Shown piece by piece: positions 7,028 through 60,267 of a stretch of DNA of 64,000 bases. Position 1 is the first letter of the stretch, and every line of letters begins with the position of its first letter. The stretch comes from Corynebacterium occultum. GTDB taxonomy: Bacteria; Actinomycetota; Actinomycetes; Mycobacteriales; Mycobacteriaceae. The stretch lies in assembly GCF_009734425.1 (NCBI RefSeq), contig NZ_CP046455.1:1302001-1366000 (forward strand), given 5' to 3'. Both the position numbers and the translations under genes were made by a program. A model generated the notes under the pieces. The model ran no database searches. It was not told where the DNA came from and saw nothing but the letters and a program-made list of their open reading frames with translations.

Positions 7028-7039
7028 GCGTCGATAAGC
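7028..7039 (+). repeat. Dispersed motif copy GCGTCGATAAGC
   Basis: Exact copy of the recurrent GCTTATCGACG element (read on the minus strand), between a membrane-protein gene and leuB. Here it lies in the loop of a possible GGGGGCG/CGCCCCC hairpin. See findings. Confidence 0.85.
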
Positions 7040-7075
7040 GCCCCCGGTTGCGGGGTGATGTGTGTGTCACCCTGT

Positions 7076-7081
7076 TAGTAT
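7076..7081 (+). promoter_or_regulatory. Predicted leuB -10 element
   Basis: TAGTAT lies 39 bases before the leuB ATG, giving a leader of about 33 bases that contains the ribosome binding site GAAAGGA. In C. glutamicum leuB is repressed by LtbR; the ltbR orthologue lies at 28386-29102. Confidence 0.4.
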
Positions 7082-7120
7082 CAGTAAAAAGTTCGCATGG
7101 TGAGAAAGGAATCCCACACA

Positions 7121-8137: not shown

Positions 8138-8160
8138 TTACCTCGGGAAAATTTATCGGA

Positions 8161-8192
8161 ACCGTCACCCTCCGGGGTGGCGGTTTTTATTT
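8161..8192 (+). terminator. leuB terminator
   Basis: ACCGTCACCC pairs with GGGTGGCGGT (one G-T pair) around a 4-base loop, followed by a T-rich tail. Confidence 0.85.
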
Positions 8193-8260
8193 TAACTACT
8201 GCGACATCCAGCTGCCCGGCGGACGGAGCGGCACTGAGGCCTGCCGAGAGGAACACAACC

Positions 8261-8285
8261 ATTGTTTTCTATATTGGAAAGCAAT
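8261..8285. promoter_or_regulatory. Operator-like inverted repeat over a leaderless promoter
   Basis: ATTGTTTTC and GAAAGCAAT form an 8-of-9 inverted repeat with a 7-base spacer. A -10 element TAGTGT (8285-8290) starts at its last base and is followed 7 bases later by ATG 8298, so a bound protein would block the promoter. The winged-helix regulator encoded two genes on (8750-9091) is the obvious candidate ligand; this is inference. Confidence 0.55.
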
Positions 8286-8297
8286 AGTGTCGGTTAT

Positions 8298-8753
8298 ATG
8301 CACAACCACGGTTCAGACATGAAGAAGTGGGATGTCTCACCTGAAGAGGCGAAAGATATCCTGGCTGATATTTCAGCCATCAACCAGGCGGCTGAGTGGA
8401 AACCGAGCCCCGGAGCAACCGCCCTCCTGGCGTTAGTTTTTGCCTCTCTGATCACGGCCGCTGTCTGGGAACTTTTCTTCTGGATGTTCGGTCTGCTGGC
8501 TCTACTTTTCCTCCTTCTTTTTCTGTTTCGCAGACAACTGATCAACCCCTACGTCCGGCACCGCCCCTGGCAGCCGCTGGGCCAGGAAAACCAGGGGCAA
8601 CAGAGTAAATGGTGGCTCACCTCAGGCTGGTCCCTCTGGATGCCGATGACGATCCTGCTCCCCGCTGAACCCAGATGGATCGGGCTCATCGCCGGGACCC
8701 TGGCCGGCCTGCACCTCTACCACGGACTCAAGACTGTCGGGGATTTCCGGTGA
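8298..8753 (+). CDS. Small membrane protein paired with a winged-helix regulator
   Basis: About 151 residues: a hydrophilic N-terminus ('KKWDVSPEEAKDILADI'), two closely spaced hydrophobic segments (about residues 40-80), an RH-rich loop, then two weaker hydrophobic segments near the C-terminus. I do not recognise a named family. Such proteins are often the target or cargo of an adjacent MarR/wHTH repressor. ATG 8298 is preferred because TAGTGT lies 7 bases upstream (leaderless); TTG 8262 with GAGAGGAA upstream is a second possibility but would place the operator inside the gene. Its stop overlaps the start of the next gene (GTGA), so translation is probably coupled. Confidence 0.65.
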   Translation: MHNHGSDMKKWDVSPEEAKDILADISAINQAAEWKPSPGATALLALVFASLITAAVWELFFWMFGLLALLFLLLFLFRRQLINPYVRHRPWQPLGQENQGQQSKWWLTSGWSLWMPMTILLPAEPRWIGLIAGTLAGLHLYHGLKTVGDFR

Positions 8754-9091
8754 ATGCTGAACTCGATCCCGTCATCCACCCGATCAACCGATTGCGTATC
8801 TGCGCAGCCCTGAAAGCGGCAGGAGCGACCGAAGGTGAGGGCCTCGACCGGGAGATGAAGTTCGCTACCCTCCGGGAAGTAACTGCGTTGAGTGCCGCCA
8901 CTCTGTCGAAGCAACTGGGAGTGCTCGGCTCTCACGGGTACATCACCCGTCACCGTGAATACGGTTCCAGTCGCGCCAAGGACACGGTGTGGGTATCTCT
9001 CACCCCTGCCGGAAACACCGCCCTGAACAGACATCTGGCCGCCCTGCGAAAGATCGCGGAGACCGCAGGGGGCGTCGATAAGCATGGCTGA
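8750..9091 (+). CDS. Winged-helix DNA-binding regulator (MarR-like, HTH_34 type)
   Basis: 113 residues, a single winged-helix domain. The recognition region 'TLREVTALSAATLSKQLGVLGSHGYI' is broken by a turn of the standard HTH type, and the wing contains 'HREYGSSRAKDTVWVSLTPAG', typical of the PF13601 group that senses state through protein partners or small ligands. GTG 8750 overlaps the previous stop. The operator-like inverted repeat upstream of the pair suggests autoregulation. The dispersed GTCGATAAGC motif makes up its last codons (9072-9083). Confidence 0.8.
   Translation: MNAELDPVIHPINRLRICAALKAAGATEGEGLDREMKFATLREVTALSAATLSKQLGVLGSHGYITRHREYGSSRAKDTVWVSLTPAGNTALNRHLAALRKIAETAGGVDKHG
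9072..9083 (+). repeat. Dispersed motif copy GCGTCGATAAGC
   Basis: Exact copy inside the last codons of the winged-helix gene. See findings. Confidence 0.85.
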
Positions 9092-9139
9092 CCGCACAAA
9101 AGCGGTCCGAGGGAACAACCCAGCCACTAAGCTGAGCCC

Positions 9140-10996
9140 ATGAGCGTTGAACTTGAGGAGGTCCGTGCCTTCCTGGCGGACAATGAGCCCTTCCTGCGGT
9201 TACCGGCCGAAGAACTGCAAACCCTGCCCGCCAAAATGAACATGAGCTACGCCCGCCGCGGAGAAACGATCCTGCGTTTCGGGGAGATCAATGAACAACT
9301 CCACATTATCCGCTCCGGGGCAGTGGACCTACTCGGGGAAGACGGGGTGCTGCTGGACCGCCGCGACGCCGGCCGTTCCTTCGGCTACTCCACCCTGGCC
9401 GGGGAACCCGAATCGCGCTACACCATCATCGCGGTGGAGGACTGCCTGCTGCTGAACCTGCCGGTAGCTGAATTCCAGGACATCTCGGAAAGACACCCCG
9501 ACCTGGCACGCTACTTCTCCAGCCAATCCCGCCGCATCCGGGCAGTGGCCGAAGAACTACGCCAGGACACCTCCGCGGCGGTGCTACGCACCAGACTGGG
9601 TGACTTCAAGATCCCGGAACCGGCACTCGTCACCTCAGACGCCACCATCCAGGCAGCCGCCCGAAAAATGAATGAACTCCGTGTCTCCTCCCTGCTGATC
9701 GGCTCACTCGAGAACCTGGAAGGCATCATCACCGACCGTGACCTACGGGGCAGGGTGGTGGCCGAAGGCATGGACATCAACCTGCCGGTAGCCGAGATCA
9801 TGACCACCAACCCACGGATCGGAACCTCCGACACCCTGGCCTTCGAAGCGATGCTGGTCATGGCGGAACTGCGCATCCACCACCTTCCCGTGGTGGACGA
9901 CGGAACAGTCACCGGCATCGTCACCGCCGCCGACATCATGCGCCTGATGGGCCAGGACCCGATCTACCTCACCGCTGATGTCTCCCGAAAAACCACTGTG
10001 GAAGAACTCAGCGGCTCCTTCACCAAAGCCTCTGAAATCGGTGTCCGCTTCATCGAACGCGGCGCCTCCTCAGAAGAAACCGCCGGACTGATGACCATCG
10101 TCGCCGACGCCATCGCCCGCCGACTACTGAAACTGGCAGAAGAAAAACTCGGGCCCCCACCCGTACCTTATGCCTTCGCCGTCCTCGGCTCCCAAGGCCG
10201 CCATGAGATGGGCTTCGCCTCCGACCAGGACAACGCCCTCATCCTGGACAACTCCTACCGAGAAACCGAACACGGAGCCTACTTCGCCGAACTCAGCGCA
10301 TTCGTCTGCCTCGGGTTGGACCGCGCCGGGCAGGTGCTGTGCCCTGGTGACATGATGGCGATGAACCCGGAATGGCGCAAGACACTCAGTGAGTGGGAGC
10401 AGACCTTCCATGTCTGGGTGACTGCCCCGGATCCGGATGCATTGCTGCACGCCCAGACCTTCTTCGATATCCGTGGGGTCTACGGGGAGCTGAGCCTGGC
10501 AGATCGGGTGCATGCCTCAGCGGTGTCGATGGCGAGTGGGGCGCGGCGGATGCAGGCACATCTGGCCACCCTAGCGGTGCGACGTGAACCCCCGCTGGGA
10601 TTCTTCCGTGGCCTGGTGGTGGAACGCAGTGGCGATTACACCAACACCCTGAACGTGAAGAAGGGCGGCACCGCCGGCATTGTGCAGATGGCGCGGCTCT
10701 TCTCTCTCCAGGCCGGGGTCAAGGCATTGGGCACCAGGGCACGGCTGAGTCTGGCCGCCGGGGGAGGAACAGTTTCCGATCGGGGTGCCCATGATCTGCT
10801 GGATGCCTTTGAGTTTCTCCGCTCGGTGACCTTCAAACACCAGGCGGAGCAGCTGCGTCATGATCAGACCCCCGACTACAACATCGACCCGGCGAAGCTG
10901 AGCAAAATGGACCGGGAGCATCTGCGTGATGCCTTCCAGATCATCAAGGGCATGCAGAACGCTCTGGCCACCCAGTACCCGGTGAGGAATATCTGA
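9140..10996 (+). CDS. cNMP-binding / CBS-pair / DUF294 nucleotidyltransferase-like signalling protein
   Basis: 618 residues with four blocks: a cyclic-nucleotide-binding-like beta-barrel (about 10-140), a CBS domain pair (about 155-270, with 'GIITDRDLRGRVV' and 'GIVTAADIMRLMG'), a GlnD-like nucleotidyltransferase core ('VLGSQGRHEMGFASDQDN', about 345-365, with the GS...DxD pattern) and a C-terminal DUF294 helical domain. The layout matches putative signal-transduction proteins widespread in bacteria; the nucleotide sensed and the target are unknown. ATG 9140 has TAAGCT 6 bases upstream (leaderless). The stop overlaps the ATG of the exonuclease gene by one base, so the two are one translational unit. 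Confidence 0.88.
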   Translation: MSVELEEVRAFLADNEPFLRLPAEELQTLPAKMNMSYARRGETILRFGEINEQLHIIRSGAVDLLGEDGVLLDRRDAGRSFGYSTLAGEPESRYTIIAVEDCLLLNLPVAEFQDISERHPDLARYFSSQSRRIRAVAEELRQDTSAAVLRTRLGDFKIPEPALVTSDATIQAAARKMNELRVSSLLIGSLENLEGIITDRDLRGRVVAEGMDINLPVAEIMTTNPRIGTSDTLAFEAMLVMAELRIHHLPVVDDGTVTGIVTAADIMRLMGQDPIYLTADVSRKTTVEELSGSFTKASEIGVRFIERGASSEETAGLMTIVADAIARRLLKLAEEKLGPPPVPYAFAVLGSQGRHEMGFASDQDNALILDNSYRETEHGAYFAELSAFVCLGLDRAGQVLCPGDMMAMNPEWRKTLSEWEQTFHVWVTAPDPDALLHAQTFFDIRGVYGELSLADRVHASAVSMASGARRMQAHLATLAVRREPPLGFFRGLVVERSGDYTNTLNVKKGGTAGIVQMARLFSLQAGVKALGTRARLSLAAGGGTVSDRGAHDLLDAFEFLRSVTFKHQAEQLRHDQTPDYNIDPAKLSKMDREHLRDAFQIIKGMQNALATQYPVRNI

Positions 10997-12596: not shown

Positions 12597-13229
12597 ATGA
12601 CCACGCACCAGGATCGCCACCACGAGCACCACAACACCCACTCCCGCCAGGATGCCGAGGGCTTCTATGCGGGGACCGAGCCACGATGGTCGGGAGAGCC
12701 GAATCAGGCGCTGGTGCGGGAATTATCAGATCTGGCCCCCGGCCGCTGCCTCGATATCGGCTGCGGTGAGGGGGCCGATCTGCTGTGGCTGGCCAGGCAG
12801 GGTTGGGAAGCGCTCGGCATCGATTTCGCTCCCACCGCCGTGGCTCGCACCCAGGCGCTTATCGACGCCGCGAAGAGCGAGGACACCAACCTTCGTGCTG
12901 AGGCCCGCGAAGCAGCTTTCCCGGGATTAGGGGAAACCGATTTTGACCTGATCACCGCCTCCTACACCCAGATTCCCCGTTCGGCTGAAGCCGTTGCCGA
13001 GCTGCGCGGGTCCCTCAAGGTCGGTGGAACCCTCTTCATGGTCCACCATGTTTTCGGGCAGACTGAAGCAGCGCAGGCGGAAGGTATCATCCTGCCGGAA
13101 TGGTTGGCCTCTCAGCTGGGTGATGATTTCCGCGTGCTGAAGCTGGAGCTCAGCAGCCGGGATATCGCCACCGGGGCAGGTGCCCATCATCATGATGACC
13201 TGGTGCTGGTGGCTGTCCGGGAACACTGA
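12597..13229 (+). CDS. Class I SAM-dependent methyltransferase
   Basis: 210 residues. After a His-rich N-terminus ('HQDRHHEHHNTH') comes the SAM-binding motif I 'CLDIGCGEGADLLWLA' (about residue 50) followed by 'ALGIDFAPTAV', the acidic end of strand 2. The substrate is unknown. ATG 12597 has TACCCT 6 bases upstream, so the gene appears to have its own leaderless promoter although it is only 13 bases after odx. The codons for 'LIDA' at 12857-12868 carry a copy of the dispersed motif, using a CTT leucine codon where CTG or CTC would be usual. Confidence 0.85.
   Translation: MTTHQDRHHEHHNTHSRQDAEGFYAGTEPRWSGEPNQALVRELSDLAPGRCLDIGCGEGADLLWLARQGWEALGIDFAPTAVARTQALIDAAKSEDTNLRAEAREAAFPGLGETDFDLITASYTQIPRSAEAVAELRGSLKVGGTLFMVHHVFGQTEAAQAEGIILPEWLASQLGDDFRVLKLELSSRDIATGAGAHHHDDLVLVAVREH
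12857..12868 (-). repeat. Dispersed motif copy GCTTATCGACGC
   Basis: Exact copy inside the methyltransferase gene, extended to GCTTATCGACGCCGCG. See findings. Confidence 0.85.
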
Positions 13230-16410: not shown

Positions 16411-16422
16411 GCGTCGATAAGC
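16411..16422 (+). repeat. Dispersed motif copy GCGTCGATAAGC
   Basis: Exact copy in the short gap between the esterase gene and gltX. See findings. Confidence 0.85.
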
Positions 16423-16452
16423 GTGGGGTGAGGGTGGTCTACGATAATGGGC

Positions 16453-17934
16453 ATGTCTGAAGTTCGCGTACGTTTCTGCCCTTCGCCCACCGGTACCCCT
16501 CATGTGGGCCTGGTGCGCACCGCCCTGTTCAACTGGGCTTATGCCCGTCACACCGGAGGCAAAATGGTCTTCCGGATCGAGGACACCGATGCCGCCCGTG
16601 ACTCCGAGGAGTCCTACCAGGCGCTTCTCGACGCCATGAAATGGCTCGGCCTCGACTGGGATGAAGGTGTGGAGAAGGGTGGGCCGCACGAGCCTTATCG
16701 TCAGAGCCAGCGTATGGACATCTACCAGGATGTCCTGAAGAAGCTGATCGACGCCGGTGAAGTCTACCCGGCATACTCCACCGCCGAGGAGGTCGAGGAG
16801 CGCCACAAGGCAGCTGGCCGCGACCCGAAGCTGGGCTATGACAACTACGACCGCACCCTCACCGAGGAACAGATCGCCGCTTTCGAGGCGGAGGGCCGCA
16901 AGCCGGTCTGGCGCCTGCGCATGCCGGACAAGAACTGGTCCTGGAATGACCTGGTCCGCGGCGAGGTGGAGTTCAAGTCGGAGACCCAGCCGGACTTCGT
17001 GGTGGCCCGTGCCAACGGTTCCCCGCTGTACACCCTGGTCAACCCGGTTGATGATGCCCTGATGCGCATCACCCACGTTCTGCGTGGCGAGGATCTGCTG
17101 CCCTCCACCCCGCGTCAGCTGGCGCTTTATGAGGCGTTGCAGCGCATCGGGGTCACCGATTTCACCCCGCAGTTCGCCCACATGCCTTTCGTGATGGGGG
17201 AGGGCAACAAGAAGCTGTCCAAGCGTGACCCCCAGTCCAACCTCTTCAACCACCGCGATGCCGGCGTCATCCCGGAGGGCATGCTGAACTATCTGGCGTT
17301 GCTGGGTTGGTCGCTGTCCGCGGACCAGGACGTCTTCAGCGTGGGGGACCTGGTCAAGAACTTCGATATCGCTGATGTGCTGGGCAACCCGGCACGTTTC
17401 GATGAGAAGAAGATGCTGGCCATCAACGCTGACCAGATTCGACTGCTGCCGGCCGAGGAATTTGAGAAGCGCCTGCGGGACTACCTCAATGAATTCAGCG
17501 AGTTCCCCGCAGACTACCCGGCCGATAAGTTCAAGATCGCCGCCGAGTTGGTGCAGACCCGCATCAAGACCCTGGGTGATGCCTGGGGTCTGCTGAAGTT
17601 CCTGGTCATCGAGGACGCAGACCTGGTTCTGGATGAGAAGGCCGCCAAGAAGAACCTCAAGGAGGCCGCCATCGCACCCCTGGATGCCGGCATCGCTGCT
17701 CTGGAAGATGTCTCGGAGTGGGTCACCCCTGAGATCGAGGCCGCGCTCAACAAGGCCCTGATCGAGGACCTCGGCCTCAAGCCGCGCGTCGCTTTCGGTG
17801 CCCTGCGCGTGGGGCTGTCCGGGGAAGCCGTCTCCCCGCCGCTTTTTGAGTCCATGGAGCTGCTGGGCCGCGAGTCCACACTGACCCGACTCAAGGCCGC
17901 CCGCGAGGTAACCCCCTACGTGGCAGCTGAGTAG
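16453..17934 (+). CDS. gltX: Glutamyl-tRNA synthetase
   Basis: 493 residues. Class I synthetase charging tRNA-Glu. The HIGH-type motif is '[18 protein letters not shown]' and the KMSKS loop is 'KKLSKRDPQ'. It ends with the alpha-helical anticodon-binding domain. An in-frame ATG at 16447 begins only 1 base after the likely -10 element TACGAT (16440-16445); the ATG at 16453 is where a leaderless transcript would start, so I take 16453. Three tRNA-Glu genes lie within 10 kb downstream. It is followed by a strong terminator. Confidence 0.96.
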
Positions 17935-17985: not shown

Positions 17986-17997
17986 GCTTATCGACGC
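17986..17997 (-). repeat. Dispersed motif copy GCTTATCGACGC
   Basis: Exact copy between the gltX terminator and the end of the convergent XRE gene. See findings. Confidence 0.85.
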
Positions 17998-19658: not shown

Positions 19659-21179
19659 ATGAGTGCGGAGAGAACAATTGCTAATGCCCTGACTTTTAGT
19701 GAACTTGCAGCTAAAGAGCCGGCTTGGGCACTCCTGCGCGCGAAGAACGCCCCAGCCATCCTCACTGTTTTATCCGCAGTATTCCGGGGTGACAATCGAC
19801 AGGTTCCAGGCTCCGAGCTCCTCGCTGCGACTGCTCAAATCTTGCCGGAGGTTCGAGAACAGACCGGACTCGAGCTCAAGCTCAGCACCGAGGCATATAT
19901 CGAAGAATGGGTACGCAGCGGTTTTCTCACCCGCCGGGCCCCGCAGGACGCGCTGGAAGAGCTGTACGAACTGTCGCCCGGAGCCCATTTGGCACATGAC
20001 TTCGTGGAACAACTTCACACCCCTAAACGTGCTGTCACGCGCTCCCGGCTGAGCAATGTTTTTAATAGTCTGCGTGCACTGGAAGCGGATACGGATCCCG
20101 ATGAAAACCGTGCCATCGAACGCCTGGAGCGGCAACGCGATGAACTGCAACGGCGCATCGATTCGATCAGAGTCGACGGCGTGCGCATGGTAGACACCGA
20201 TGATGCTGTCGAACAGGCGCGCGAGGTTATTTCCCTTATTCGAGACCTTCCCACTGACTTTGCCCGGGTGCAATCGGAGATTGAACGCGAAGACCTGAAG
20301 CTGCGCGAACAGATCCTCACTGATGACCGCCGTGGCGCCGAAGTGCTTGAGGAGTTTTTCAACGGACTGGACCTCATCGACCAATCAGATGCTGGCCAGG
20401 CCTTCAATGGCTTTTACCGTCTCTTACTTGACCATCAGGAGTCGGCGAGGTTTGAGGCGACGCACTCCGAGGTTCTGAAGCGTGATTTCATCACCAACCT
20501 GGACTGGGAAGAGCAAGCCTTGTTGTGGGGGTTGATGACCACGCTGCGCTCGTCGGCTGGTGCAGTACAGGAGGCGAAGACCAGGCTGTCACGCTCCCTG
20601 CGTCGATTCGTGCAGTCCCGGGAAAACGAATCGCACAAAGGTCTGCTCGATTCCATCAAGAACGTGGAAGTCGCGGCGCTGCAGTTCACCAAGAATGGCG
20701 GTAAGACACGTCATACATTGGATATAGATCTCAGGTTGACCCGAGGTCAGTTCAGTACCGCCGCATCATGGACCCTGCGTGATCCCGCCGACTTCCACAT
20801 TGAGACCAACGTGCCGATTCATCAACCGGGACATCTTGATCCGCAAGAGCTTCGGGCGCGTCTGCGCGACACGGAAGTGGACTGGGGCGAATTACACCTC
20901 GCCATCAATGACCTTGTTGAGGAAGGACAACAACCCACCGTCGCGGAGGTTCTTCAGTCTCGGCCAGCCACTCAGGGCTTGGCCAGTGTGGTGGGACTGA
21001 TCCAGCTCGCCCGGCAACGCGGTAACCGTACAGAGGGCACTGAACTCCTGCGGTGGACATCACCCGAGGGGAAATTGCTGCAAGCCAGGTACCCAACTTA
21101 CGAGTTCCGCGAATATGTCCCGACCGTGACTCAACTATGGGACGACCAACCAACCATGAAAGACAACGCCAATGCCTGA
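19659..21179 (+). CDS. jetA: Wadjet subunit JetA (DUF3375, kleisin; MksF)
   Basis: 506 residues, normal length for the DUF3375 family. JetA is the kleisin that bridges the JetC ATPase heads and recruits JetB. Visible are a helical N-terminal domain, a charged coiled-coil-like segment at about 145-185 ('AIERLERQRDELQRRI'), and a C-terminal winged-helix-like region ending in 'YPTYEFREYVPTVTQLW'. It is the first gene of a tight operon; its stop overlaps jetB by 8 bases. Codon use (frequent AAT, ATA, TTG, AAA) looks less GC-rich than the core genes, in line with acquisition by transfer. Family call by resemblance and operon order. Confidence 0.9.
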   Translation: MSAERTIANALTFSELAAKEPAWALLRAKNAPAILTVLSAVFRGDNRQVPGSELLAATAQILPEVREQTGLELKLSTEAYIEEWVRSGFLTRRAPQDALEELYELSPGAHLAHDFVEQLHTPKRAVTRSRLSNVFNSLRALEADTDPDENRAIERLERQRDELQRRIDSIRVDGVRMVDTDDAVEQAREVISLIRDLPTDFARVQSEIEREDLKLREQILTDDRRGAEVLEEFFNGLDLIDQSDAGQAFNGFYRLLLDHQESARFEATHSEVLKRDFITNLDWEEQALLWGLMTTLRSSAGAVQEAKTRLSRSLRRFVQSRENESHKGLLDSIKNVEVAALQFTKNGGKTRHTLDIDLRLTRGQFSTAASWTLRDPADFHIETNVPIHQPGHLDPQELRARLRDTEVDWGELHLAINDLVEEGQQPTVAEVLQSRPATQGLASVVGLIQLARQRGNRTEGTELLRWTSPEGKLLQARYPTYEFREYVPTVTQLWDDQPTMKDNANA

Positions 21180-25264: not shown

Positions 25265-26370
25265 AGTACCAGGAAGACGTGCGGTCTCAGGCTGAGGTGT
25301 TCTACCGGAACAACTACCGGACGTGGTTAAGAGGTGAGTTCTCCCCGCGCGCCATAGGGCTACAGCCGCCGACAGCCAAAGATGTCGCCGTCGATGGAGG
25401 TCGAGCAGTAAGGAACTGGTTGGCGCACTGGGACGGTTACCCAGGGATGGTGGATACAGTCTGCAAACGCATCGGACACTTGGGTACCTACGAAGTGCCG
25501 GCCAAGGTGGTATTCAACACTCCGGCTGCTGCCGCGACGGCCGCCGGCCGTGCTGATGAATGGATGCGGTTGCTTGAGGTACTGGACCTGCTTGTCGACG
25601 CGTTGGGGGATCAGGTGCGGGCGCCGCTTGCTGCGAATCCGCAATCGTGGGCGCAGTGGAACGACCGTGAGATCAGCCAGTACATAGCCGTGATTCGCTG
25701 GTTACGGGAGCATGATTCGGCGGGTTATTACATCCGTGAATTGCCCATCCGAGGGGTGGATACGAAATGGATTGAAACTCACCGGGTGGCAGTCAATTCC
25801 GTTTATCCCCTGCAGGGCTTCCGAGAGAAACCTGTCTTGGTGGAAGTACGCACGTTAGATCCTGCACTGCCGGTGGGGGATTTCAGTCATGTGTTGTGTC
25901 GGGTGGAGGAGTTATCCCCCCGACATGTAGCTGCGGACAACGTCATCATTATGGAAAACCATCATTCTTTCCTGGCCTTGCCGCCGATCAAGGGGACCTG
26001 GGTGCTGTTCGGCGGCGGGTACCGCGCTGACACGCTGGTGACTGAATTGGGGTGGCTGGCTGATAAGAATGTGTACTACTGGGGCGACCTAGACTCCCAC
26101 GGATTCAACATGGTCAGCAAGACCCGTGCAGTTCTACCGGCCATGCGGACAGTACTGATGGATCTGGACACTGCCATCCGGCATGAGGAACTGGCGGTCG
26201 AGGAGTCCACCGCATTGCCATATGACCCCGCGAATCTTGCTCCGGGGGAAAAGCAAACGCTGAGCTATTTGCGTGAGCGATCTCGGGGGCGATGCTTGCG
26301 GATCGAGCAGGAACGCATTGACTTTCAGTGGGTGTGCGCACAACTGGAGTCGCACGTGGGACATCGTTGA
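25261..26370 (+). CDS. jetD: Wadjet nuclease JetD (DUF3322/DUF2220, Toprim-like; MksG)
   Basis: 369 residues. The N-terminal DUF3322 part is followed by a C-terminal Toprim-like domain with the acidic residues in 'VIIMENHHS' (Glu, about 231) and 'YWGDLDSHGF' (DxD, about 275), the metal-binding centre of JetD/MksG. In known Wadjet systems it cuts small circular DNA once the JetABC motor stalls on it, so plasmids are removed and the chromosome is spared. GTG start overlaps the jetC stop. Catalytic residues are present, so no sign of decay. Confidence 0.92.
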   Translation: MKYQEDVRSQAEVFYRNNYRTWLRGEFSPRAIGLQPPTAKDVAVDGGRAVRNWLAHWDGYPGMVDTVCKRIGHLGTYEVPAKVVFNTPAAAATAAGRADEWMRLLEVLDLLVDALGDQVRAPLAANPQSWAQWNDREISQYIAVIRWLREHDSAGYYIRELPIRGVDTKWIETHRVAVNSVYPLQGFREKPVLVEVRTLDPALPVGDFSHVLCRVEELSPRHVAADNVIIMENHHSFLALPPIKGTWVLFGGGYRADTLVTELGWLADKNVYYWGDLDSHGFNMVSKTRAVLPAMRTVLMDLDTAIRHEELAVEESTALPYDPANLAPGEKQTLSYLRERSRGRCLRIEQERIDFQWVCAQLESHVGHR

Positions 26371-27029: not shown

Positions 27030-27665
27030 GATTAAGAAAAGGTCACTATCTTCTAACGGAGGTGGTGGCCTTCTTCTTGCTCCCAATAAGAGCACCCCCG
27101 CACCCGAACGAGTCAAGGCTGGTTTTCCTTGGCTTTCGGGGGACAGGGGGTATTTCTGGGTAACATGTTAGCGCCTGTTTGAGTTCACTCTCTTTTCAAA
27201 CCGATGTAGCACTCATATGCTTCAGGTAACGGAGAAATCCACAGCAAGGCTCCATCGGTACCGTGGAGTTTGACCGATTAGCTACCGGCCACTTGGAAGC
27301 CTCCGGAGACATTGGAATCAACGGATTGGAGAGCGAATGACGGCAAGTGGAACCAACACAACTTCCGGACACCTCGTAGGCGTTCACCCGGCAGCGGGCA
27401 TCGCCATAATCCAGACTTCCAAGCACTAGAGATGTGTGAAGTAGGAGCTAACCGAGTATATGACGTATCGAGAGTGTCACCCGAACCCCACGAATCACGA
27501 CCTTCGATAACCCACACCCGGCACATTATTCCCTTTAAGGGTTGAGGCGGACGGGATGACGAGAAGCATCACTACCTCGCATCTCAGATACTTCCGCACA
27601 CGACGTCGGAAAGCGGTGGCAGCAGGTCGAAGGTAACGGAATCGTCCAAGGTTCGGCCACTGCAG
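27030..27665. other. Gene-poor stretch between tRNA-Glu copies 2 and 3
   Basis: About 640 bases with only short open frames and no recognisable protein. One 30-codon frame at 27337-27429 has GGAGAG upstream but no homology I know. The stretch ends in a strong terminator (27666-27707), so it may be transcribed, either as a read-through from tRNA-Glu copy 2 or as an unknown RNA; otherwise it is decayed island DNA. Confidence 0.4.
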
Positions 27666-28385: not shown

Positions 28386-29102
28386 CTAGAGCGCTGCGCT
28401 GAGCTTTTCCGAGGCCTGCAGAAGTTCGGTCGACCACTTGGCCCCGGGCTCCGGTCCCAACCGCTCCGCTGGCCCAGAGATGGACAGTACCGCCAGGAAA
28501 AGTCCGGCAGAGTTGAATACCGGGGAGGATAGGCTGGCCAGACCTGGTTCGCGTTCGCTGACGGATTCCGCCCAGCCCTGTTCGATCACCTGGCGTAGTT
28601 CGGCGGCGGTGAAGGCGGCGTCGGGAAGCAGGGCTTCGCGGAGCTGCTCGCTGGAGTGGGCGAGGAATACCTTGGCGGCGGAACCGGCGGTCAGCCTCAT
28701 CTGGGAACCCACTGGAACGGTGTTCTGCAGACCAGAGGGCGGTTCCTGGGCAGCGACGCAGGTGCGGGTGGTGTCGGTGAGCTGGTAGAGCTGCACCGAT
28801 TCCCCCGTGTGGTTCATGAGGGCGGCCATGACGGGGGTCGCGGCGTCGATAAGCTGGGTTTTTGCACCTGCGCCCAGTGTTGCCAGGGCGGAGCCGATGG
28901 ACCAACGGCCATCGGAGGTGCGCGCCAGGATGCGGTGGGTTTCCAGGGCGGTGGCCAGGCGGTGCACGGTGGCCCGGGGGAGTTCGGTATCCTCACACAG
29001 TTCGGCCAGCGAACGGGGATGGTCGGCTGCGGACATCATGATGGCGACCACACGGTCGAGAACCTTGATGCCGGAGGGGGTTGATGCGCTATACTGTCCC
29101 AT
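28386..29102 (-). CDS. ltbR: IclR-family regulator of leucine/tryptophan synthesis
   Basis: 238 residues: N-terminal winged helix ('RSLAELCEDTELPRATVHRLATAL' broken here) and C-terminal IclR effector domain ('SVQLYQLTDT', 'GSAAKVFLA', 'EPGLASLSSPVFNSAGLFLAVLSISGP'). Its place, divergent from leuCD, is that of C. glutamicum LtbR, which represses leuB, leuCD and the trp operon. TAATAT (29109-29114, minus strand) ends 6 bases before the ATG, so the message is probably leaderless and its promoter overlaps that of leuC. A copy of the dispersed motif lies in its codons for 'LIDAA'. Confidence 0.9.
   Translation of the reverse strand: MGQYSASTPSGIKVLDRVVAIMMSAADHPRSLAELCEDTELPRATVHRLATALETHRILARTSDGRWSIGSALATLGAGAKTQLIDAATPVMAALMNHTGESVQLYQLTDTTRTCVAAQEPPSGLQNTVPVGSQMRLTAGSAAKVFLAHSSEQLREALLPDAAFTAAELRQVIEQGWAESVSEREPGLASLSSPVFNSAGLFLAVLSISGPAERLGPEPGAKWSTELLQASEKLSAAL
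28843..28854 (+). repeat. Dispersed motif copy GCGTCGATAAGC
   Basis: Exact copy inside ltbR; read along the gene it is GCTTATCGACGCCGCG. See findings. Confidence 0.85.
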
Positions 29103-36938: not shown

Positions 36939-38012
36939 GTGAGCAACATCGAGCAGCAGCGAATCCGAGTCGCCGTCATCTACGGCGGCCGCAGCCCCGA
37001 GCACTCCGTCTCCTGCGTCTCCGCAGGTGCCGTGATGAGCCACCTCGACCCCGAGAAGTACGAGATCATCCCGGTCGGCATCACCCAGGAGGGAATGTGG
37101 ACCATCGGTGAATCCGACTACTCCCGCCTTCGAACCCAGGACCGGGTCCTGCCCGTGGTCGAGGCCCGCGAGGAACTCAAACTCTCCCTCAACCCCGGAC
37201 AGCGCGGCCAATTCCACACCACCGATGGTCAGCTCCACGCCACCGCAGATGTCATCTTCCCCGTCCTCCACGGCCCCTGCGGAGAGGACGGCACCATCCA
37301 GGGACTCTTCGAACTCTCCGGCGTGCCCTACGTGGGCAATGGTGTCCTCGCTTCCGCAGCCGGCATGGACAAGGAATTCACCAAGAAGCTGATGCTCGCC
37401 GTCGGCCTGCCCATCACCCCGGAACTGGTGCTGCGCGCCGGGGAGGAGTTCCCGGCGAAGGAGAAGGAGCGCCTGGGGCTGCCCGTCTTCGTGAAGCCGG
37501 CCCGGGGTGGTTCCTCCATCGGCATCTCCAAGGTCACCGCCTGGGAGCAGCTGAATGCCGCCATCGCCCTGGCGCGTGAGCATGATGAGAAGGTGATCAT
37601 CGAGGCGGAGATCGTCGGTGATGAGGTGGAGGTCGGTGTGCTGCAGCTTGCCGACGGCCGCGTCATCGCCTCGGTGCCGGCGATGCTGGAGCACACCTCC
37701 GAATCCGCCGAAGGTTTCTACGGCTTCGAGACCAAGTACCTCGATGATGTGGTCACCGCCGCCATCCCCGCCCCCTACAGCGAGGAGGTCACCACCAGGC
37801 TGCAGGAATTGGCGGTGCACACCTTCACCGCCCTGAACTGTGAGGGCCTGGCCAGGGTGGATTTCTTCCAGACCGCCAAGGGCCCGGTGCTCAATGAGAT
37901 CAACACCATGCCGGGTTTCACCCCGATCTCCATGTACCCCCAGGTTTTCGCCGCCAGCGGCGTCGACTACCCCGAGCTTCTCGACGCCCTCGTCCAGCGC
38001 GCCCTGCGCTGA
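36939..38012 (+). CDS. ddl: D-alanine--D-alanine ligase
   Basis: 357 residues. ATP-grasp enzyme making D-Ala-D-Ala for peptidoglycan. Seen: 'IYGGRSPEHSVSCVSAG' at the N-terminus, 'VLHGPCGEDGTIQG', 'VKPARGGSSIGISK', and the metal/substrate site 'LNEINTMPGFTPISMYP'. GTG 36939 with TAAGCT 8 bases upstream. The stop codon abuts the stop codon of the convergent DUF3515 gene with no base between, so there is no room for a separate terminator. Confidence 0.96.
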   Translation: MSNIEQQRIRVAVIYGGRSPEHSVSCVSAGAVMSHLDPEKYEIIPVGITQEGMWTIGESDYSRLRTQDRVLPVVEAREELKLSLNPGQRGQFHTTDGQLHATADVIFPVLHGPCGEDGTIQGLFELSGVPYVGNGVLASAAGMDKEFTKKLMLAVGLPITPELVLRAGEEFPAKEKERLGLPVFVKPARGGSSIGISKVTAWEQLNAAIALAREHDEKVIIEAEIVGDEVEVGVLQLADGRVIASVPAMLEHTSESAEGFYGFETKYLDDVVTAAIPAPYSEEVTTRLQELAVHTFTALNCEGLARVDFFQTAKGPVLNEINTMPGFTPISMYPQVFAASGVDYPELLDALVQRALR

Positions 38013-43474: not shown

Positions 43475-43486
43475 GCTTATCGACGT
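43475..43486 (-). repeat. Dispersed motif copy GCTTATCGACGT
   Basis: Exact 11-mer, extended to GCTTATCGACGTCGCG, between arsO and a convergent small gene. See findings. Confidence 0.85.
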
Positions 43487-43780: not shown

Positions 43781-43904
43781 CGCGTCACCTTAATTCTTCT
43801 GAGCTTCATTAACCGCCGGAAACTATAGCGATACTCGGGGTGCACCGAGAGGGGATGTATTGCCCACCCCCCAGTCACCCTCCCCAGGCCCTAGAATCGG
43901 GCCC

Positions 43905-44587: not shown

Positions 44588-46138
44588 ATGTCCTATCCCA
44601 CCGAGCTCGATGGCCCCCGGATGCGCAATTGGGCGGTCCGGGCCGTCGCGGAACTCTCGGCGCGCCGCGCCGAGATCAACGCCCTCAACGTCTTCCCGGT
44701 ACCGGACGCCGACACCGGTTCCAACATGACCCACACCATGGAGGCGGCGTTAAGGGAGGTGGAGAAACTTGATGAGAAGGAAGCCAAGGATGCGGTCCGC
44801 GTCGCCGAAGCCCTGGCCGTCGGCTCGGTCCGTGGGGCACGTGGCAACTCCGGGGTGGTGCTCAGCCAGGTGCTGCGCGCCGTGGCGCAGGCCGCGGTCG
44901 ACGGTCGGGTGGACGGGGCGTCGATAAGCCAGTCCCTGTCCATTGCGGTGCAGCTGGTCGACACCGCGATCTCCGACCCCGTCGAAGGAACCGTCATCAC
45001 GGTGCTCCGCGCCTCCGCCATCGCCGCCCGAGACATCGGCGGTGAATTGCATGAGGTGGTCGCCGCCGCCGTGCACGCAGCCCGGATCGCCCTGGCCAAA
45101 ACCCCTTCCCAACTCGATGTACTACGCGAAGCCGGGGTCGTGGACGCAGGCGGCCAGGGTTTCGTGGTGATCATGGAAACCCTGCTGGCCGAAATCGAGG
45201 GCGGCACCATCCGGGAACTGCCCATCGGGGTGGAAAGCCACGGCAAGGTCATCCCGATAGAGGTCATGTTCTACTTCTCCGGCCCGAAACTGGATGAACT
45301 GGAACAGGAACTCCACGACCTGGGTGACAGCCTGCTGATCGCCCGGGATTCGGATATCGGCGGCACCGTCCACATCCATTCCTCCCAACCCGGCGCGGTC
45401 ATCGAGCAGGCCTATGCGATGGGGGCGGTTTCTGAGCTGCGCCTGGAGGTCCTGCCTGAGGCCCCGCAGGTTGCCCCACCCACCAGGGTGGTCGTCGCGA
45501 TCACCCCACGTGGTTCGATCGCCCAGCTCTACCGGGAGTCCGGTGCCCTGGTGGTCAGTCCCGGTGGGGATGTGGTCTCCGAGATCATCGCCGCGGTGCG
45601 CCGCAGTGGGGCGGAAGAGGTCATCCTCCTGCCCAATGGGCTGCTCAACCGTCGTGAAATGGTGTCGGTGGAAAAAGCCAGCCATGCTTTCGAACAGACC
45701 ATCACGCTTCTGCCCACCGGCCGGCTGGTCAGCGGCATCGCCGCACTGTCCGTCCATGATCCGGAGGAACCCCTCGGGGTGGCCGCCTATGCGATGGCAG
45801 AGGCCGCGGGTGCGATGCGCACCGCCATTCTGCGTCGCGCGGAAAAGGCCGCGTTGACCCAGGTCGGGCCCTGCGCACGCGGGGATATCCTCGCCACCAC
45901 CCAGTTGGGTGAGATCATCCTGGTCGCCGAGGATCTCATCGACGCCCTCCTGGGTACCTGTCGCCGCCTACTCGAGGCAGGTGGGGAACAGGTCACCCTG
46001 CTCGCCTCCCCGAAGGTGATCGGCAAGCTCAAGGGGGAAGAGATCGTGAAGAATCTGGGGCGCACCGGGGTGGGTGTCGAGGTGATGATCTATCCTGCAG
46101 AGGGAATGGAACATCTGATCGAAATCGGCGTGGAATAA
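44588..46138 (+). CDS. DAK2-domain protein, FakA/YloV-like fatty acid kinase component
   Basis: 516 residues. The N-terminal DAK phosphotransfer domain has 'INALNVFPVPDADTGSNM' (about 35-52), the ATP/metal site of dihydroxyacetone-kinase-like proteins, then 'VRGARGNSGVVLSQ'. The C-terminal part matches the FakA/YloV type, which in Firmicutes phosphorylates fatty acids bound to FakB (DegV). No FakB is in the window. TAGACT (44574-44579) lies 8 bases before the ATG. recG follows in the same direction. Confidence 0.85.
   Translation: MSYPTELDGPRMRNWAVRAVAELSARRAEINALNVFPVPDADTGSNMTHTMEAALREVEKLDEKEAKDAVRVAEALAVGSVRGARGNSGVVLSQVLRAVAQAAVDGRVDGASISQSLSIAVQLVDTAISDPVEGTVITVLRASAIAARDIGGELHEVVAAAVHAARIALAKTPSQLDVLREAGVVDAGGQGFVVIMETLLAEIEGGTIRELPIGVESHGKVIPIEVMFYFSGPKLDELEQELHDLGDSLLIARDSDIGGTVHIHSSQPGAVIEQAYAMGAVSELRLEVLPEAPQVAPPTRVVVAITPRGSIAQLYRESGALVVSPGGDVVSEIIAAVRRSGAEEVILLPNGLLNRREMVSVEKASHAFEQTITLLPTGRLVSGIAALSVHDPEEPLGVAAYAMAEAAGAMRTAILRRAEKAALTQVGPCARGDILATTQLGEIILVAEDLIDALLGTCRRLLEAGGEQVTLLASPKVIGKLKGEEIVKNLGRTGVGVEVMIYPAEGMEHLIEIGVE
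44918..44929 (+). repeat. Dispersed motif copy GCGTCGATAAGC
   Basis: Exact copy inside the DAK2 gene, encoding 'ASIS'. See findings. Confidence 0.85.
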
Positions 46139-48327: not shown

Positions 48328-48540
48328 ATGAAAATTTGCGCACCCTTCGCAGGCATCGTGCACTATCGGGTCGCCGAGGGCGCCCTGGTGAACACCGGTG
48401 ATGAACTGGCCACCGTCGAAGCCGTGAAACTGGAGGCCCCTGTGCTCGCCCCCGGCCCCGGGGTCGTCGCCAAGCTGGCGATGGCGGACTTCACCGACGT
48501 CATCGGTGGCGAAGAACTGCTCGAACTCAAGGAGGCTTAA
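48328..48540 (+). CDS. Single-domain biotin/lipoyl carrier protein
   Basis: 70 residues, only a biotinyl domain: 'ICAPFAGIVHYRVAEGALV', then the attachment site 'EAVKLEAPVLAP' where the Lys would carry the cofactor, and 'GVVAKLAMADFTDVIGG'. The usual AMKM is AVKL here, still a plausible biotin site. The carboxylase it would serve is not nearby. TAAGCT (48315-48320) lies 7 bases before the ATG (leaderless). rsmD follows after 6 bases. Confidence 0.8.
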   Translation: MKICAPFAGIVHYRVAEGALVNTGDELATVEAVKLEAPVLAPGPGVVAKLAMADFTDVIGGEELLELKEA

Positions 48541-55415: not shown

Positions 55416-55431
55416 GTCTTCAAGTAAGCCT

Positions 55432-55890: not shown

Positions 55891-55900
55891 ACAATGAAGA

Positions 55901-55944: not shown

Positions 55945-55960
55945 GTTTATCTCCGCAGGT

Positions 55961-56422: not shown

Positions 56423-56425
56423 ATA

Positions 56426-56502: not shown

Positions 56503-56654
56503 TTAATTCCAGGTTGTGATGGAGAGTTTAGACCAGCTCGAGTTTAGGGCGCCAATCACCCACCCGGAAAGCCCCCTGCAGCGGGCGGAAGGCGGCGTTA
56601 AAGTGGCGGTACACTAGGGGGGAAACTAATCCTGGTGTGCTCGTGTGGGGGAAG

Positions 56655-57494
56655 ATGATGCGGACGATAGTGATCACCGGAGCCAGTGATGGAATCGGTG
56701 CCGAAGCAGCCCGGCAGCTATCAGAAGCCACCGTAGATAAAGATCAGCAGCTGGTCCTGATCGGCCGTTCCCCGGAGAAGACCCGCCGTATCGCGGAAGA
56801 ACTCGGGGCAGCCCACCATCTGGTCGACTACACCAGCCTGGATTCCGTCAGGGTGCTGGCAGCTACCCTCAATGAGAAATATGGGCGCATCGATGTGCTG
56901 GCCAATAATGCCGGGGGAGTGTTCAGTGGCCCGGTCCGCACCGTCGATGGTTTCGAGCGCACCTTCCAGGTCAATTATCTGGCACCTTTTCTGCTGACCC
57001 ATCTGCTGATGGAGAAGCTGATGAGCAGTCAGGCGAATGTGGTCTTCAACTCCAGCTTCACCTCCTGGATGATGGGGAAGATTGATCTCCATGACCTCAG
57101 TGGCTGGGGAAATTTCAGCATCAACCAGGCTTATGCCAACTCCAAGTTGGCGGTCAACATCTTCAGTGAGCAACTGCATCAGCGCTATCACCGGCAGGGG
57201 ATCTCCACTGTGTCCTTTTCCCCGGGGATGGTGGCCACCAATGTGGTTCGGGAATCCGGTTATGAGCCTGGCCCGAGGCTGAAGAAACTGGCGGCACCCT
57301 TTCTCACCCCACTGGATCGTGCCGGTGGCCGCCTGGCGTATTTCATCAGCGGTGAACCGGGCCGGGACTGGGAGTCAGGAAAATTCTATGGCTCGAACCT
57401 CAAGCCCGGTCGCCACACTAAACTCTCTCAGAGCCCCCGCCTTTCGGAACGGGTCTGGGAGCTCAGTTCTCAGATGCTGGCCATTCGCTGGTGA
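56655..57494 (+). CDS. Short-chain dehydrogenase/reductase
   Basis: 279 residues. NAD(P)-binding 'TGASDGIGAEAARQL', 'NNAGG' after 'IDVLA', and the catalytic Tyr-x3-Lys in 'NQAYANSKLAVNIF'. The long C-terminal part resembles retinol-dehydrogenase/protochlorophyllide-reductase-like SDRs. Substrate unknown. ATG 56655 with GGGGAAG upstream. polA follows on the same strand with its own promoter. Confidence 0.88.
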   Translation: MMRTIVITGASDGIGAEAARQLSEATVDKDQQLVLIGRSPEKTRRIAEELGAAHHLVDYTSLDSVRVLAATLNEKYGRIDVLANNAGGVFSGPVRTVDGFERTFQVNYLAPFLLTHLLMEKLMSSQANVVFNSSFTSWMMGKIDLHDLSGWGNFSINQAYANSKLAVNIFSEQLHQRYHRQGISTVSFSPGMVATNVVRESGYEPGPRLKKLAAPFLTPLDRAGGRLAYFISGEPGRDWESGKFYGSNLKPGRHTKLSQSPRLSERVWELSSQMLAIRW

Positions 57495-57564
57495 GCCGTG
57501 GGGAAGCGGCGTTCGGTAATACCCCTGCCCCGCTGGGTCCTCCCCTTGACCTAGACTCGGCAGG

Positions 57565-60267
57565 GTGAGTGAGAACACCGATCTGAACACGACTGACAGC
57601 ACCGGCGAGCGGCCGCGCCTCCTGCTCATCGACGGCCATTCGATGGCTTTCCGGGCATTCTTCGCGCTGCCGGCCGAGAACTTCTCCACGACCGGCGGGC
57701 AACACACCAACGCCGTCTACGGCTTTCTCTCGATGCTGGCCAATATCCTCAAGGAGGAGCAGCCGAGCCATGTCGGCATCGCCTTCGACGTGGGGCGGAA
57801 GACTTTCCGCACCGATCTTTTCCCGGCGTACAAGGCTCAGCGTGAGGCCACCCCGGAGGAGTTCAAGGGGCAGGTCGGCCTGATCAAGGAGGTGCTGGAA
57901 TCCCTCGGCATCACCACCATGGAGCAGGAAAATTATGAGGCCGATGACATCATCGGCACTCTGGTCACCCAGGCCCGATCCAACTATGAGACGGTCATCG
58001 TCACCGGTGACCGTGACTACCTGCAGCTGGTCGATGAGAACACCACCGTGCTCTACCCGATGCGTGGGGTGTCCACCCTGCATCGCTTCACCCCGGCGGC
58101 AGTGGAGGAGAAGTACGGCCTGACCCCGCAGCAGTACCCGGATTTCGCGGCCCTGCGGGGCGATCCCTCCGATAACCTGCCAGGTGTTCCCCGCGTTGGT
58201 GAGAAGACCGCCACCAAGTGGATTCTGGAGTACGGCTCCCTGGACAATCTGCTGGATAATGCCGACAACATCAAGGGGTTGGCAGGTGAGAACCTCAGGG
58301 AGCGAATCGACCAGGTTCGGATGAACCGTGATCTGACGGCCATGGTCACCGACATGGATCTGCCGCTCGGGCCAGATGATCTGGTTCCGGGTGAGGCGAA
58401 TGTCGCCGCTATCGCCGAGCGTTTCGATGAGCTGCAGTTCGGCACCAGCCTGCGGGAACGCATCCTCGCCTCCGTCAACGCGGACAATGGCGCCCAGGTC
58501 GAGCCGGTCCCAGCCGCTGAGGTCACCATCGACACCGGTTCGCTGGCCGAGTGGCTGACTGCCCGTGAGGGACAGCCCCTGGCCATGGCGGTTGCTGGTG
58601 TCGGCACGCCCGCCAGCGGTGACGCGGACGCCCTGGCGCTTATCGACGTCGCGCACCACGCCTTCGCCGCCGATCTCGCCGAGATCAGCCCGGCGGAGGA
58701 AAAGGTCCTGGCACAGTGGTTGAGTTCCGAATCCCCGAAGATCCTGCACGAGGCCAAGTCCGTCTTCCACATGCTCGCCGGCCGTGGTTTCGAACTGAAC
58801 GGCATCAGCCATGACACCGCCATCGCCGGTTACCTGTTGCGGCCTGGCCAGCGCACCTATGAACTCAAGGATGTCTACCAGCGTCACCTCCAACGCCAGC
58901 TGTCCGACCCGGAGGAAGCCGCCACCGGACAACTCAGTCTGTTGGACAGCGGGGAAGCCTCCCGCGCCCTGGTCGATCAGGCCCTGGCCATCCTGGAGCT
59001 GGCGGAGGAGCTGACTGTCCTGCTCCAGGAGATCGACAGTTTCGAGCTCTACGCCGACCTGGAACTGCCCCTGGTGGGGATCCTGGCACGCATGGAGGCC
59101 GCCGGCATCAAGGTGGATGTGCCCACCCTGGAGGAACAGCTGGAAAGCTTCGTGGAACAGGTTGCCGAGGAAGAGTCCGCCGCCCGGGAGCTGGCCGGTG
59201 ACCCCAGCCTCAACCTCTCCAGCCCCAAGCAGCTGCAGGTTGTCCTCTTCGAAACCTTCGGCATGCCCAAAACCAAGAAGACGAAGACCGGTTACTCCAC
59301 CGCGGCCAAGGAGATTGAAGCTCTCGCGGTCAAGCATCCCCACCCCTTCCTTGACCACCTCCTGGCACATCGCGAGTACCAGAAGATGAAGACCACCCTG
59401 GAAGGGTTGATCAAGACCGTCAACGGTGACGGGCGAATCCATACCACCTTCAACCAGACGGTGGCCTCTACGGGGCGACTCTCCTCCACGGACCCGAACC
59501 TGCAGAACATCCCGGTACGTACCCCGGCGGGCCGGAAGATCCGCTCCGCCTTCGTGGTCGGCGAGGGCTATGAAACCCTGCTCACCGCCGACTACTCCCA
59601 GATCGAGATGCGCGTGATGGCACACCTCTCCGGCGACCCGGGGCTGGTGGAGGCCTACCAGGCGGGCGAGGACCTCCACAATTACGTCGGCTCCAAGGTC
59701 TTCGACGTGCCCATCGACGGGGTCACCCCGGAACTGCGCCGCCGCGTGAAGGCCATGTCCTATGGCCTGGTTTATGGACTCTCCGCCTTCGGTCTCTCCC
59801 AACAGCTCAATATCTCCCCGGCGGAAGCCAAGCAGACGATGGAGAGCTACTTCGAACGCTTCGGTGGGGTCAAACGTTACCTCGCCGAGGTGGTCGATGA
59901 AGCCCGCCAGGTTGGCTACACCTCAACGCTCTTCGGACGTCGCCGCTACCTTCCGGAGCTGACCTCCGATAACCGCGTGGCCCGGGAGAATGCCGAACGT
60001 GCCGCCCTCAACGCCCCGATTCAGGGTACCGCGGCTGACATCATCAAGGTCGCCATGATCCGCGTGGACCGTGAACTGCGCAAGGCCCAGGTCACGTCCC
60101 GGGTGCTGCTCCAGGTCCATGATGAACTGGTCGTAGAGGTCTCCCCGGGTGAGCTGGAACAGGTCCGGGGCATCGTGGAAAAGGAGATGGACTCCGCGAT
60201 CACTCTGGCGGTGCCGCTCGAGGTGTCTGCCGGGCATGGATTGAACTGGGACAACGCCGCGCACTAG
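57565..60267 (+). CDS. polA: DNA polymerase I
   Basis: 900 residues. N-terminal 5'-3' exonuclease ('LLIDGHSMAFRAFF', 'EADDIIGTL', 'VTGDRDYLQL', helix-hairpin-helix 'GVPRVGEKTA'), a middle 3'-5' exonuclease-like domain in which the D-x-E proofreading residues are not evident, as in other actinobacteria, and a polymerase domain with motif A 'ADYSQIEMRVMAHLSGD', O-helix 'RRVKAMSYGLVYGLSAFG' and motif C 'QVHDELVVEV'. GTG 57565 is 7 bases after TAGACT (57552-57557), leaderless. A dispersed-motif copy lies in the degenerate exonuclease region. Confidence 0.96.
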   Translation: MSENTDLNTTDSTGERPRLLLIDGHSMAFRAFFALPAENFSTTGGQHTNAVYGFLSMLANILKEEQPSHVGIAFDVGRKTFRTDLFPAYKAQREATPEEFKGQVGLIKEVLESLGITTMEQENYEADDIIGTLVTQARSNYETVIVTGDRDYLQLVDENTTVLYPMRGVSTLHRFTPAAVEEKYGLTPQQYPDFAALRGDPSDNLPGVPRVGEKTATKWILEYGSLDNLLDNADNIKGLAGENLRERIDQVRMNRDLTAMVTDMDLPLGPDDLVPGEANVAAIAERFDELQFGTSLRERILASVNADNGAQVEPVPAAEVTIDTGSLAEWLTAREGQPLAMAVAGVGTPASGDADALALIDVAHHAFAADLAEISPAEEKVLAQWLSSESPKILHEAKSVFHMLAGRGFELNGISHDTAIAGYLLRPGQRTYELKDVYQRHLQRQLSDPEEAATGQLSLLDSGEASRALVDQALAILELAEELTVLLQEIDSFELYADLELPLVGILARMEAAGIKVDVPTLEEQLESFVEQVAEEESAARELAGDPSLNLSSPKQLQVVLFETFGMPKTKKTKTGYSTAAKEIEALAVKHPHPFLDHLLAHREYQKMKTTLEGLIKTVNGDGRIHTTFNQTVASTGRLSSTDPNLQNIPVRTPAGRKIRSAFVVGEGYETLLTADYSQIEMRVMAHLSGDPGLVEAYQAGEDLHNYVGSKVFDVPIDGVTPELRRRVKAMSYGLVYGLSAFGLSQQLNISPAEAKQTMESYFERFGGVKRYLAEVVDEARQVGYTSTLFGRRRYLPELTSDNRVARENAERAALNAPIQGTAADIIKVAMIRVDRELRKAQVTSRVLLQVHDELVVEVSPGELEQVRGIVEKEMDSAITLAVPLEVSAGHGLNWDNAAH
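58638..58649 (-). repeat. Dispersed motif copy GCTTATCGACGT
   Basis: Exact 11-mer in polA, encoding 'LIDV', extended to GCTTATCGACGTCGCG. See findings. Confidence 0.85.

Follow-up and report, generated by a model that had tools for sequence, protein, structure and literature searches.

What is an 11-base word, GCTTATCGACG, doing in nine exact copies on both strands of a 64,000-nucleotide stretch of the Corynebacterium occultum chromosome? The stretch, which we call the window, spans positions 1,302,001-1,366,000 of the 3,109,186-base contig NZ_CP046455.1. We propose that the word is the core of an independently evolved, putative DNA uptake sequence (DUS) system of Corynebacterium, a reading to which we assign a probability of roughly 0.65. 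Such words have been described in Neisseriaceae and Pasteurellaceae (PMC3630211), and a putative uptake role is suggested because the Corynebacterium word behaves as theirs do. Among the options named in the original prediction, uptake fits best because of lineage dialects, near-absence from the cell's own plasmid, and graded one-off variants. An element like the highly iterated palindrome 1 (HIP1) had also been named and fits poorly, the word being non-palindromic and, in most sampled genomes, followed by a one-sided 3' tract.

An over-represented word of the genus Corynebacterium

The genome of C. occultum holds 135 + 130 exact copies of the 11-mer in 3,218,058 bases, against 1 + 0 for the reversed word, so that its count lies nowhere near expectation. 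Genome counts were compared with the reversed word and with shuffles, while a Markov comparison was made in a 104 kb sample, in which a 4th-order model predicts 0.08 copies and 10 are present. Within the window, exact and one-mismatch matches together number 18 (nine of each) against a shuffle mean of 0.6, and none of 100 shuffles reached 18; the excess first claimed for the window is therefore real. Since the flanks of the C. occultum copies differ, the copies are not one long repeat, which rules out a duplicated long element as their source. In the relative G152, 2 of 36 copies share an upstream flank.

The 11-mer is the locally commonest spelling of a wider word, GCTTNNCGACG, because the two central bases of the latter are biased by species. 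They are AT in 48 of 103 sampled copies in C. occultum and in 37 of 75 in G152, GA in 29 of 98 in G056 and 19 of 74 in G237, and GC in 17 of 37 in G188 as well as in C. tuberculostearicum. Six genomes picked by eye (G056, G070, G071, G167, G168, and G237) each carry more than 1,400 copies of the wider word, only 2-4 of them with AT. C. occultum has 748 copies of GCTTNNCGACG against 67 of its reversed control, and 173 of 242 Corynebacterium genomes have at least three times the control, carrying 115-1,964 copies each (median 1,076); summed over these 173, the strands hold 92,130 and 92,211. The exact 11-mer, counted in 348 genomes of 30 other genera, occurs there only 0-7 times, like the controls. 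Separately, in 16 of the 242 genomes (e.g. G058, G037, and G107; 8 vs 61) the wider word is less than 0.6 times as frequent as its reversed control, as if avoided.

Departures from the word are graded by position. Over 80 named polA loci, in which orthologous copies were counted more than once, the exact form occurs 109 times, base-5 changes 84, 48, and 30 times, base-4 changes 28, 12, and 1 times, and a T>G change at base 3 15 times, with every other single change at 10 or fewer. Both the graded excess of one-off copies and the massive genome-wide over-representation (265 vs 1 for the 11-mer) are properties expected of uptake sequences, and Neisseria also has many one-off DUS, as the same excerpt reports (PMC3630211).

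In Neisseriaceae the DUS are 10-12 bp long, come in eight dialects, and have ComP as their receptor. They resemble the Corynebacterium word in abundance, in core-sharing lineage dialects, and in one-off copies (PMC3630211). They differ from it in word and phylum, whereas the Corynebacterium core has two free bases and, in most sampled genomes, a one-sided C-rich tract. The uptake signal sequence (USS) of Pasteurellaceae, AAGTGCGGT, has about 1300 copies in H. influenzae according to an excerpt of PMC5217627. It is alike in its short core, in the presence of about a thousand copies, and in a one-sided flanking tract. The flanks of USS are AT tracts, whereas the Corynebacterium flank is C-rich and G-poor and the sequences are unrelated.

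Lineage dialects and their history

Word statistics of genomes lacking the 11-mer were used to search for dialects, and other words were found: GCTTGYCGATG in C. macginleyi, TGGACGCCAC in C. falsenii, and TTGATGACGYCGCGG in G012. In 14 of 242 genomes the first occurs 232-508 times, in all others at most 71 times; these 14 contain 8, 13, 45, 3, 4, 4, 1, 7, 5, 7, 12, 8, 10, and 10 standard 11-mers, that is, 1-13 in 13 of them and 45 in G024. TGACGYCGCGG reaches 520 copies in G012 (control 6) and at most 51 elsewhere among the 242, and an 80 kb sample of G012 holds 52 TGACGYCGCG sites. TGGACGCCACY has 160 copies in G050 and 70 in G072 (controls 2 and 5), and 49-59 copies in G121, G233, and G203 (controls 18-27). 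Aligned by eye without gaps in one 16-base frame (GCTTATCGACGYCSCG, GCTTGYCGATGCC, nnTTTTGGACGCCAC, and nnTTGATGACGYCGCGG), the forms have G8, A9, G11, and C13 in common and favour T4, the T run of nnTTTTGGACGCCAC being a tendency only. Lineage dialects with a common core are again a property of uptake sequences; one dialect here represents one genome and another represents two. Some recognised form is present in 189 of the 242 genomes.

No convincing dialect emerged from samples of G007, G011, G018, G021, G043, C. marambiense, and C. sp. SN15, with weak hints in G007 (CGACGCCAC) and SN15 (GGACGCCGCG, 22 vs 3.7). Longer repeats dominate the samples of G018, G021, and G008, and in 80 kb of G008 words such as TACCCCTGATA and ATTTCTCACTA are repeated 23 times in a CRISPR-array-like manner.

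The history of the word was followed on a polA tree of 51 rows (C. occultum and 50 of the 80 named loci), on which a genome counted as having the word from 100 copies of GCTTRTCGACG upwards. The resulting pattern requires 4 changes on this tree against a shuffled mean of 14.4, and none of 500 shuffles was as low. The jeikeium/urealyticum/glyciniphilum and pygosceleis/meridianum/marambiense groups lack the word, and mendelii (11 copies), 122RC1 (41), and ES2730 (39) also fall below the cut. C. glaucum DSM 30827 holds 720 copies of GCTTRTCGACG. C. macginleyi, a carrier of the GCTTGYCGATG form, groups as sister of C. tuberculostearicum and C. kefirresidentii; nested beside these two species, it has switched dialect. 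In C. tuberculostearicum the homologue of 3 of 6 C. macginleyi sites is GCTTGCCGACG, differing at the dialect letter; two of the remaining sites are degenerate there and one has no match. At a finer scale, single codon positions of polA bear the word in as many as 15 loci, and between these loci it has been gained, lost, or changed in letter.

A C-rich, G-poor tract 3' of the core

The bases following the core agree among copies, as had been noticed in the window: over 66 C. occultum copies they are C (0.62), C (0.91), C or G (0.56 and 0.39), C (0.70), and C or G. In most sampled genomes the core is followed on its 3' side by some 10-30 bp that are rich in C and poor in G. In the high-copy congener G152 this tract, with a GC skew of -0.35 to -0.50, extends to about +40 and has disappeared by about +70; none is seen upstream. 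In G054 the tract is barely visible. It is also present with the GCTTGYCGATG dialect and, in the 80 named loci, after base-5 and base-3 variants, whose orthologous copies are not independent; after base-4 variants in these loci it was not seen beyond the first bases.

We pooled six genomes (C. occultum, G152, G001 with its own dialect, G056, G237, and G129) and found a skew at +21 to +41 of -0.22 in sense copies (244), -0.20 in antisense copies (144), and -0.15 in intergenic copies (104), with upstream values near zero. The tract being alike in the three classes and the upstream skew near zero, the element is polar where the tract is present, and an origin of the tract in codon usage is rejected.

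The same comparison bears on an RNA-level element, either a terminator or a C-rich signal resembling Rho-utilisation sites. The C-rich, G-poor composition 3' of the core is what such an element might look like, but antisense copies make up 144 of the 388 pooled coding ones and the tract is equal across classes, and we regard this as the least probable of the explanations considered. Only slightly less remote is a HIP1-like or methylation-linked repeat that mutation bias or an orphan methyltransferase would maintain. HIP1 of cyanobacteria (GCGATCGC, in the excerpt of PMC4390886) is likewise a short word that is very frequent in a single bacterial group, and the Corynebacterium word lies within and between genes. 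HIP1 is, however, a methyltransferase-linked palindromic octamer, whereas the word described here is polar and asymmetric with a one-sided tract, and is nearly absent from a plasmid of the same cell.

Strand, spacing, and extrachromosomal DNA

Over the first 2.35 Mb of the 3.1 Mb C. occultum chromosome, to which our results on strand and spacing apply, the strands are even in all six bins (chi-square p 0.94). Parity within each bin means that there is no replichore polarity in this part, wherever the origin lies, and no polarity towards dif; a polar signal like the FtsK orienting polar sequences, already doubted from the mixed orientations in the window, is therefore rejected. Occurrence of both orientations alike, without replichore polarity, is a further property of uptake sequences. 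Spacing is slightly more even than random (coefficient of variation 0.90), with 9 neighbouring pairs closer than 1 kb where 16 are expected.

The second contig of the assembly (108,872 bp) is a plasmid encoding RepA, ParA, and a TrwC relaxase. It has 1 copy of GCTTNNCGACG against 26.2 expected at chromosomal density (p 1e-10) and no exact 11-mer against 9.3 expected (p 9e-5), and two phages, too few to generalise from, have 1 copy in 86 kb. Scarcity on extrachromosomal DNA of this kind is likewise a property of uptake sequences. The plasmid also carries apparent transposase and catabolic genes, and the nearest ParA found lies on a C. faecale plasmid (84%).

These distributions bear most directly on our main rival explanation, which is that the word is the site of a sequence-specific chromosome-organising or self-marking protein (a nucleoid-associated protein or condensin loader) needing about 1,000 sites. 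Such a protein would account for scarcity on the plasmid, for the likeness of the strands, and for the slightly even spacing. Nine fixed bases are nonetheless stricter than is usual for proteins of this kind, and a dialect change between close relatives would require many sites to change together under selection, the latter point being one of argument only. We consider this rival unlikely, if less so than the others. Next comes a Chi-like recombination hotspot, serving as a strand signal for a helicase-nuclease of RecBCD or AdnAB type. Chi sites, which function with RecBCD/AddAB, are also polar short words over the chromosome, and their words too differ between bacterial groups; scarcity on the plasmid and in the two phages would fit as well. 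Known Chi words, however, are shorter and often leading-strand-biased, whereas the Corynebacterium word is longer, shows no bias in the six bins, and outnumbers its reversed control 265 to 1. We regard this second rival as distinctly improbable.

A candidate uptake route and its genes

Returning to the uptake reading, we infer a receptor, an uptake bias, and competence from sequence patterns. We hypothesize that the transformation machinery includes a receptor, located on the surface or on a pilus, that would prefer DNA bearing the cell's own dialect, and that preferred fragments would enter via Tad-type pili, ComEA, and ComEC and then recombine into the chromosome. Biased uptake of this kind could spread and repair copies by molecular drive, and a shift in receptor preference might then shift the copies too, giving rise to dialects and to a species barrier. 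Plasmids, and any other DNA with which imported chromosomal fragments do not recombine, would stay almost word-free. A dialect switch among close relatives speaks for drive rather than for slow selection acting at a thousand sites, again as a matter of argument only.

Genes for such a route are present. In C. occultum, comEC adjoins comEA, whose product has SLBB and helix-hairpin-helix domains. A Tad locus of the same genome comprises genes for the ATPase, TadB/C-like proteins, and a Flp-type pilin, besides small pilin-like genes. Flp-pilus-dependent transformation has been reported in Actinobacteria, according to the excerpt of PMC4322843. An uptake route of this type therefore exists in the phylum. 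The organism of that report is said to be Micrococcus luteus.

Several side observations concern these loci. Tad neighbourhoods of 16 genomes showed no clear correlate of the word, some genes in GC-rich loci being miscalled on the wrong strand. HAD-type phosphatase-like and cold-shock-like genes (named by resemblance) near the C. tuberculostearicum Tad locus have no match in the C. macginleyi stretch. ComEC frames measure 647-795 aa in the jeikeium/urealyticum/glyciniphilum group (530 in CNJ-954) against 350-582 aa elsewhere, except in C. mendelii (679).

Observations that weigh against uptake

A number of results count against an uptake role. The presence of competence machinery, which uptake would require, does not separate genomes with the word from those without: ComEC and a T2SSE (TadA-type) ATPase were each found in 34 of 34 genomes of both kinds, so the machinery does not predict the motif. 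No ComP_DUS (PF16732) member was found over the cut-off in 11 genomes, a search whose power is unproven because 14 control genomes also yielded none. No outstandingly divergent Tad or Com protein appeared between C. macginleyi and C. tuberculostearicum, and a receptor was not found in this way.

The distribution of the word is also imperfect in several respects. No recognised form occurs in 53 of the 242 genomes, 8 of which are at 1.5-3 times the control. G024 carries the standard class (352 copies of GCTTNNCGACG, control 74) together with 307 copies of GCTTGYCGATG, and exclusion between dialects is therefore incomplete. The tract is weak beyond +21 in C. occultum and was not seen in G188 or with the G012 dialect. 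Five public Corynebacterium plasmids, of each of which 48-100% was taken, hold 13 copies in 248,672 bp (about 1 per 19 kb) against 4 of the reversed control; depletion is therefore not total there.

Paired copies in terminators are known for USS. In C. occultum, by contrast, close pairs are not enriched, with 1 under 200 bp against 3.3 expected, a result on spacing only. Intergenic copies of GCTTNNCGACG exceed expectation in C. occultum, G056, and G129, but there is no intergenic enrichment of that word in G152 or G237, nor of the 11-mer in the 80 polA loci, where 10 of 107 exact copies are intergenic.

Novelty and potential significance

A partial, mostly open-access literature search, judged largely by titles and abstracts, found no report of a Corynebacterium uptake sequence or of the word as a motif, and none of natural transformation in Corynebacterium. 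The exact 11-mer or its complement occurs in five papers, with titles on Legionella, Arabidopsis (two), a duck virus, and boron transport, and one Corynebacterium paper contains a 10-base part of it. The excerpted portion of a motif survey that included Corynebacterium genomes names only CRISPR pairs for them (PMC5217627). With somewhat less assurance than we attach to the uptake reading itself, we suggest that, for Actinomycetota as well as for bacteria whose outer membrane contains mycolic acids, this would be the first uptake-sequence system, consisting of GCTTNNCGACG with a G-poor 3' arm, a putative receptor belonging to a Tad-pilus/ComEA/ComEC import machinery, and drifting and switching dialects that may act as a sexual barrier.

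If this is correct, natural transformation would be widespread in the genus, and a group common in industry and medicine would possess sequence-gated natural transformation. Dialects would then predict which species exchange genes, and a dialect word placed on donor DNA could make hard-to-transform laboratory Corynebacterium tractable. More generally, uptake words would have had a further evolutionary origin, behind a different kind of outer membrane, so that molecular drive as a theory of uptake sequences would have a test case independent of Proteobacteria.

Copies in the window and neighbouring genes

All nine exact copies reported for the window exist. The four plus-strand positions were right as given, whereas each of the five on the minus strand had been placed one base low and starts at 7029, 9073, 16412, 28844, or 44919. 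Two one-mismatch copies had been claimed where we count nine, and the one placed at 54436 begins at 54437. Five copies had been placed between genes or at a gene's last codons; a gene caller puts four of the nine between genes, with the copy at 9073 ambiguous.

Four exact copies are intergenic, namely 7029..7039 (minus strand, followed by CCCCG), 16412..16422 (minus strand, followed by CCGCG, just upstream of gltX at open reading frame (ORF) 16447-17934), 17986..17996 (plus strand, downstream of gltX), and 43475..43485 (plus strand, between an ORF end at 43345 and ung at 43860). The ambiguous copy, 9073..9083 on the minus strand, lies between the long ORFs 8262-8753 and 9140-10996, yet within an antisense ORF according to the gene caller. 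Sense coding copies are 12857..12867 (plus strand, LIDA frame, followed by CCGCG), 28844..28854 (minus strand, in ORF 28386-29102, which resembles IclR-type regulators through NCBIfam matches below cut-off), and 58638..58648 (plus strand, in polA), the last at a codon position where 4 of the 80 named polA loci have the word too, its base 5 being G or C. The copy at 44919..44929 (minus strand) is antisense in a YloV/DAK2-domain gene (44588-46138).

With the wider word, the window holds 17 copies, including variant cores on the plus strand at 5524..5534 (GCTTCACGACG), 16623..16633 and 37976..37986 (both GCTTCTCGACG), 25590..25600 (GCTTGTCGACG), and 37646..37656 (GCTTGCCGACG), and on the minus strand at 27604..27614 (GCTTTCCGACG), 28619..28629 (GCTTCCCGACG), and 48465..48475 (GCTTGGCGACG). 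In a 364 kb sample of the C. occultum genome, chosen partly at known copies, 48 exact copies divide into 21 sense, 11 antisense, and 16 intergenic, and the leucine frame first seen in the window (LIDA/LIDV) is used by 19 of the 21 sense copies.

Apart from the word, four adjoining genes at 19659-26370 match DUF3375, DUF4194/MksE, an SbcC-type ATPase, and JetD, and form a complete-looking Wadjet (JetABCD) operon in a stretch of lower GC (about 0.55). Wadjet systems act on plasmids.

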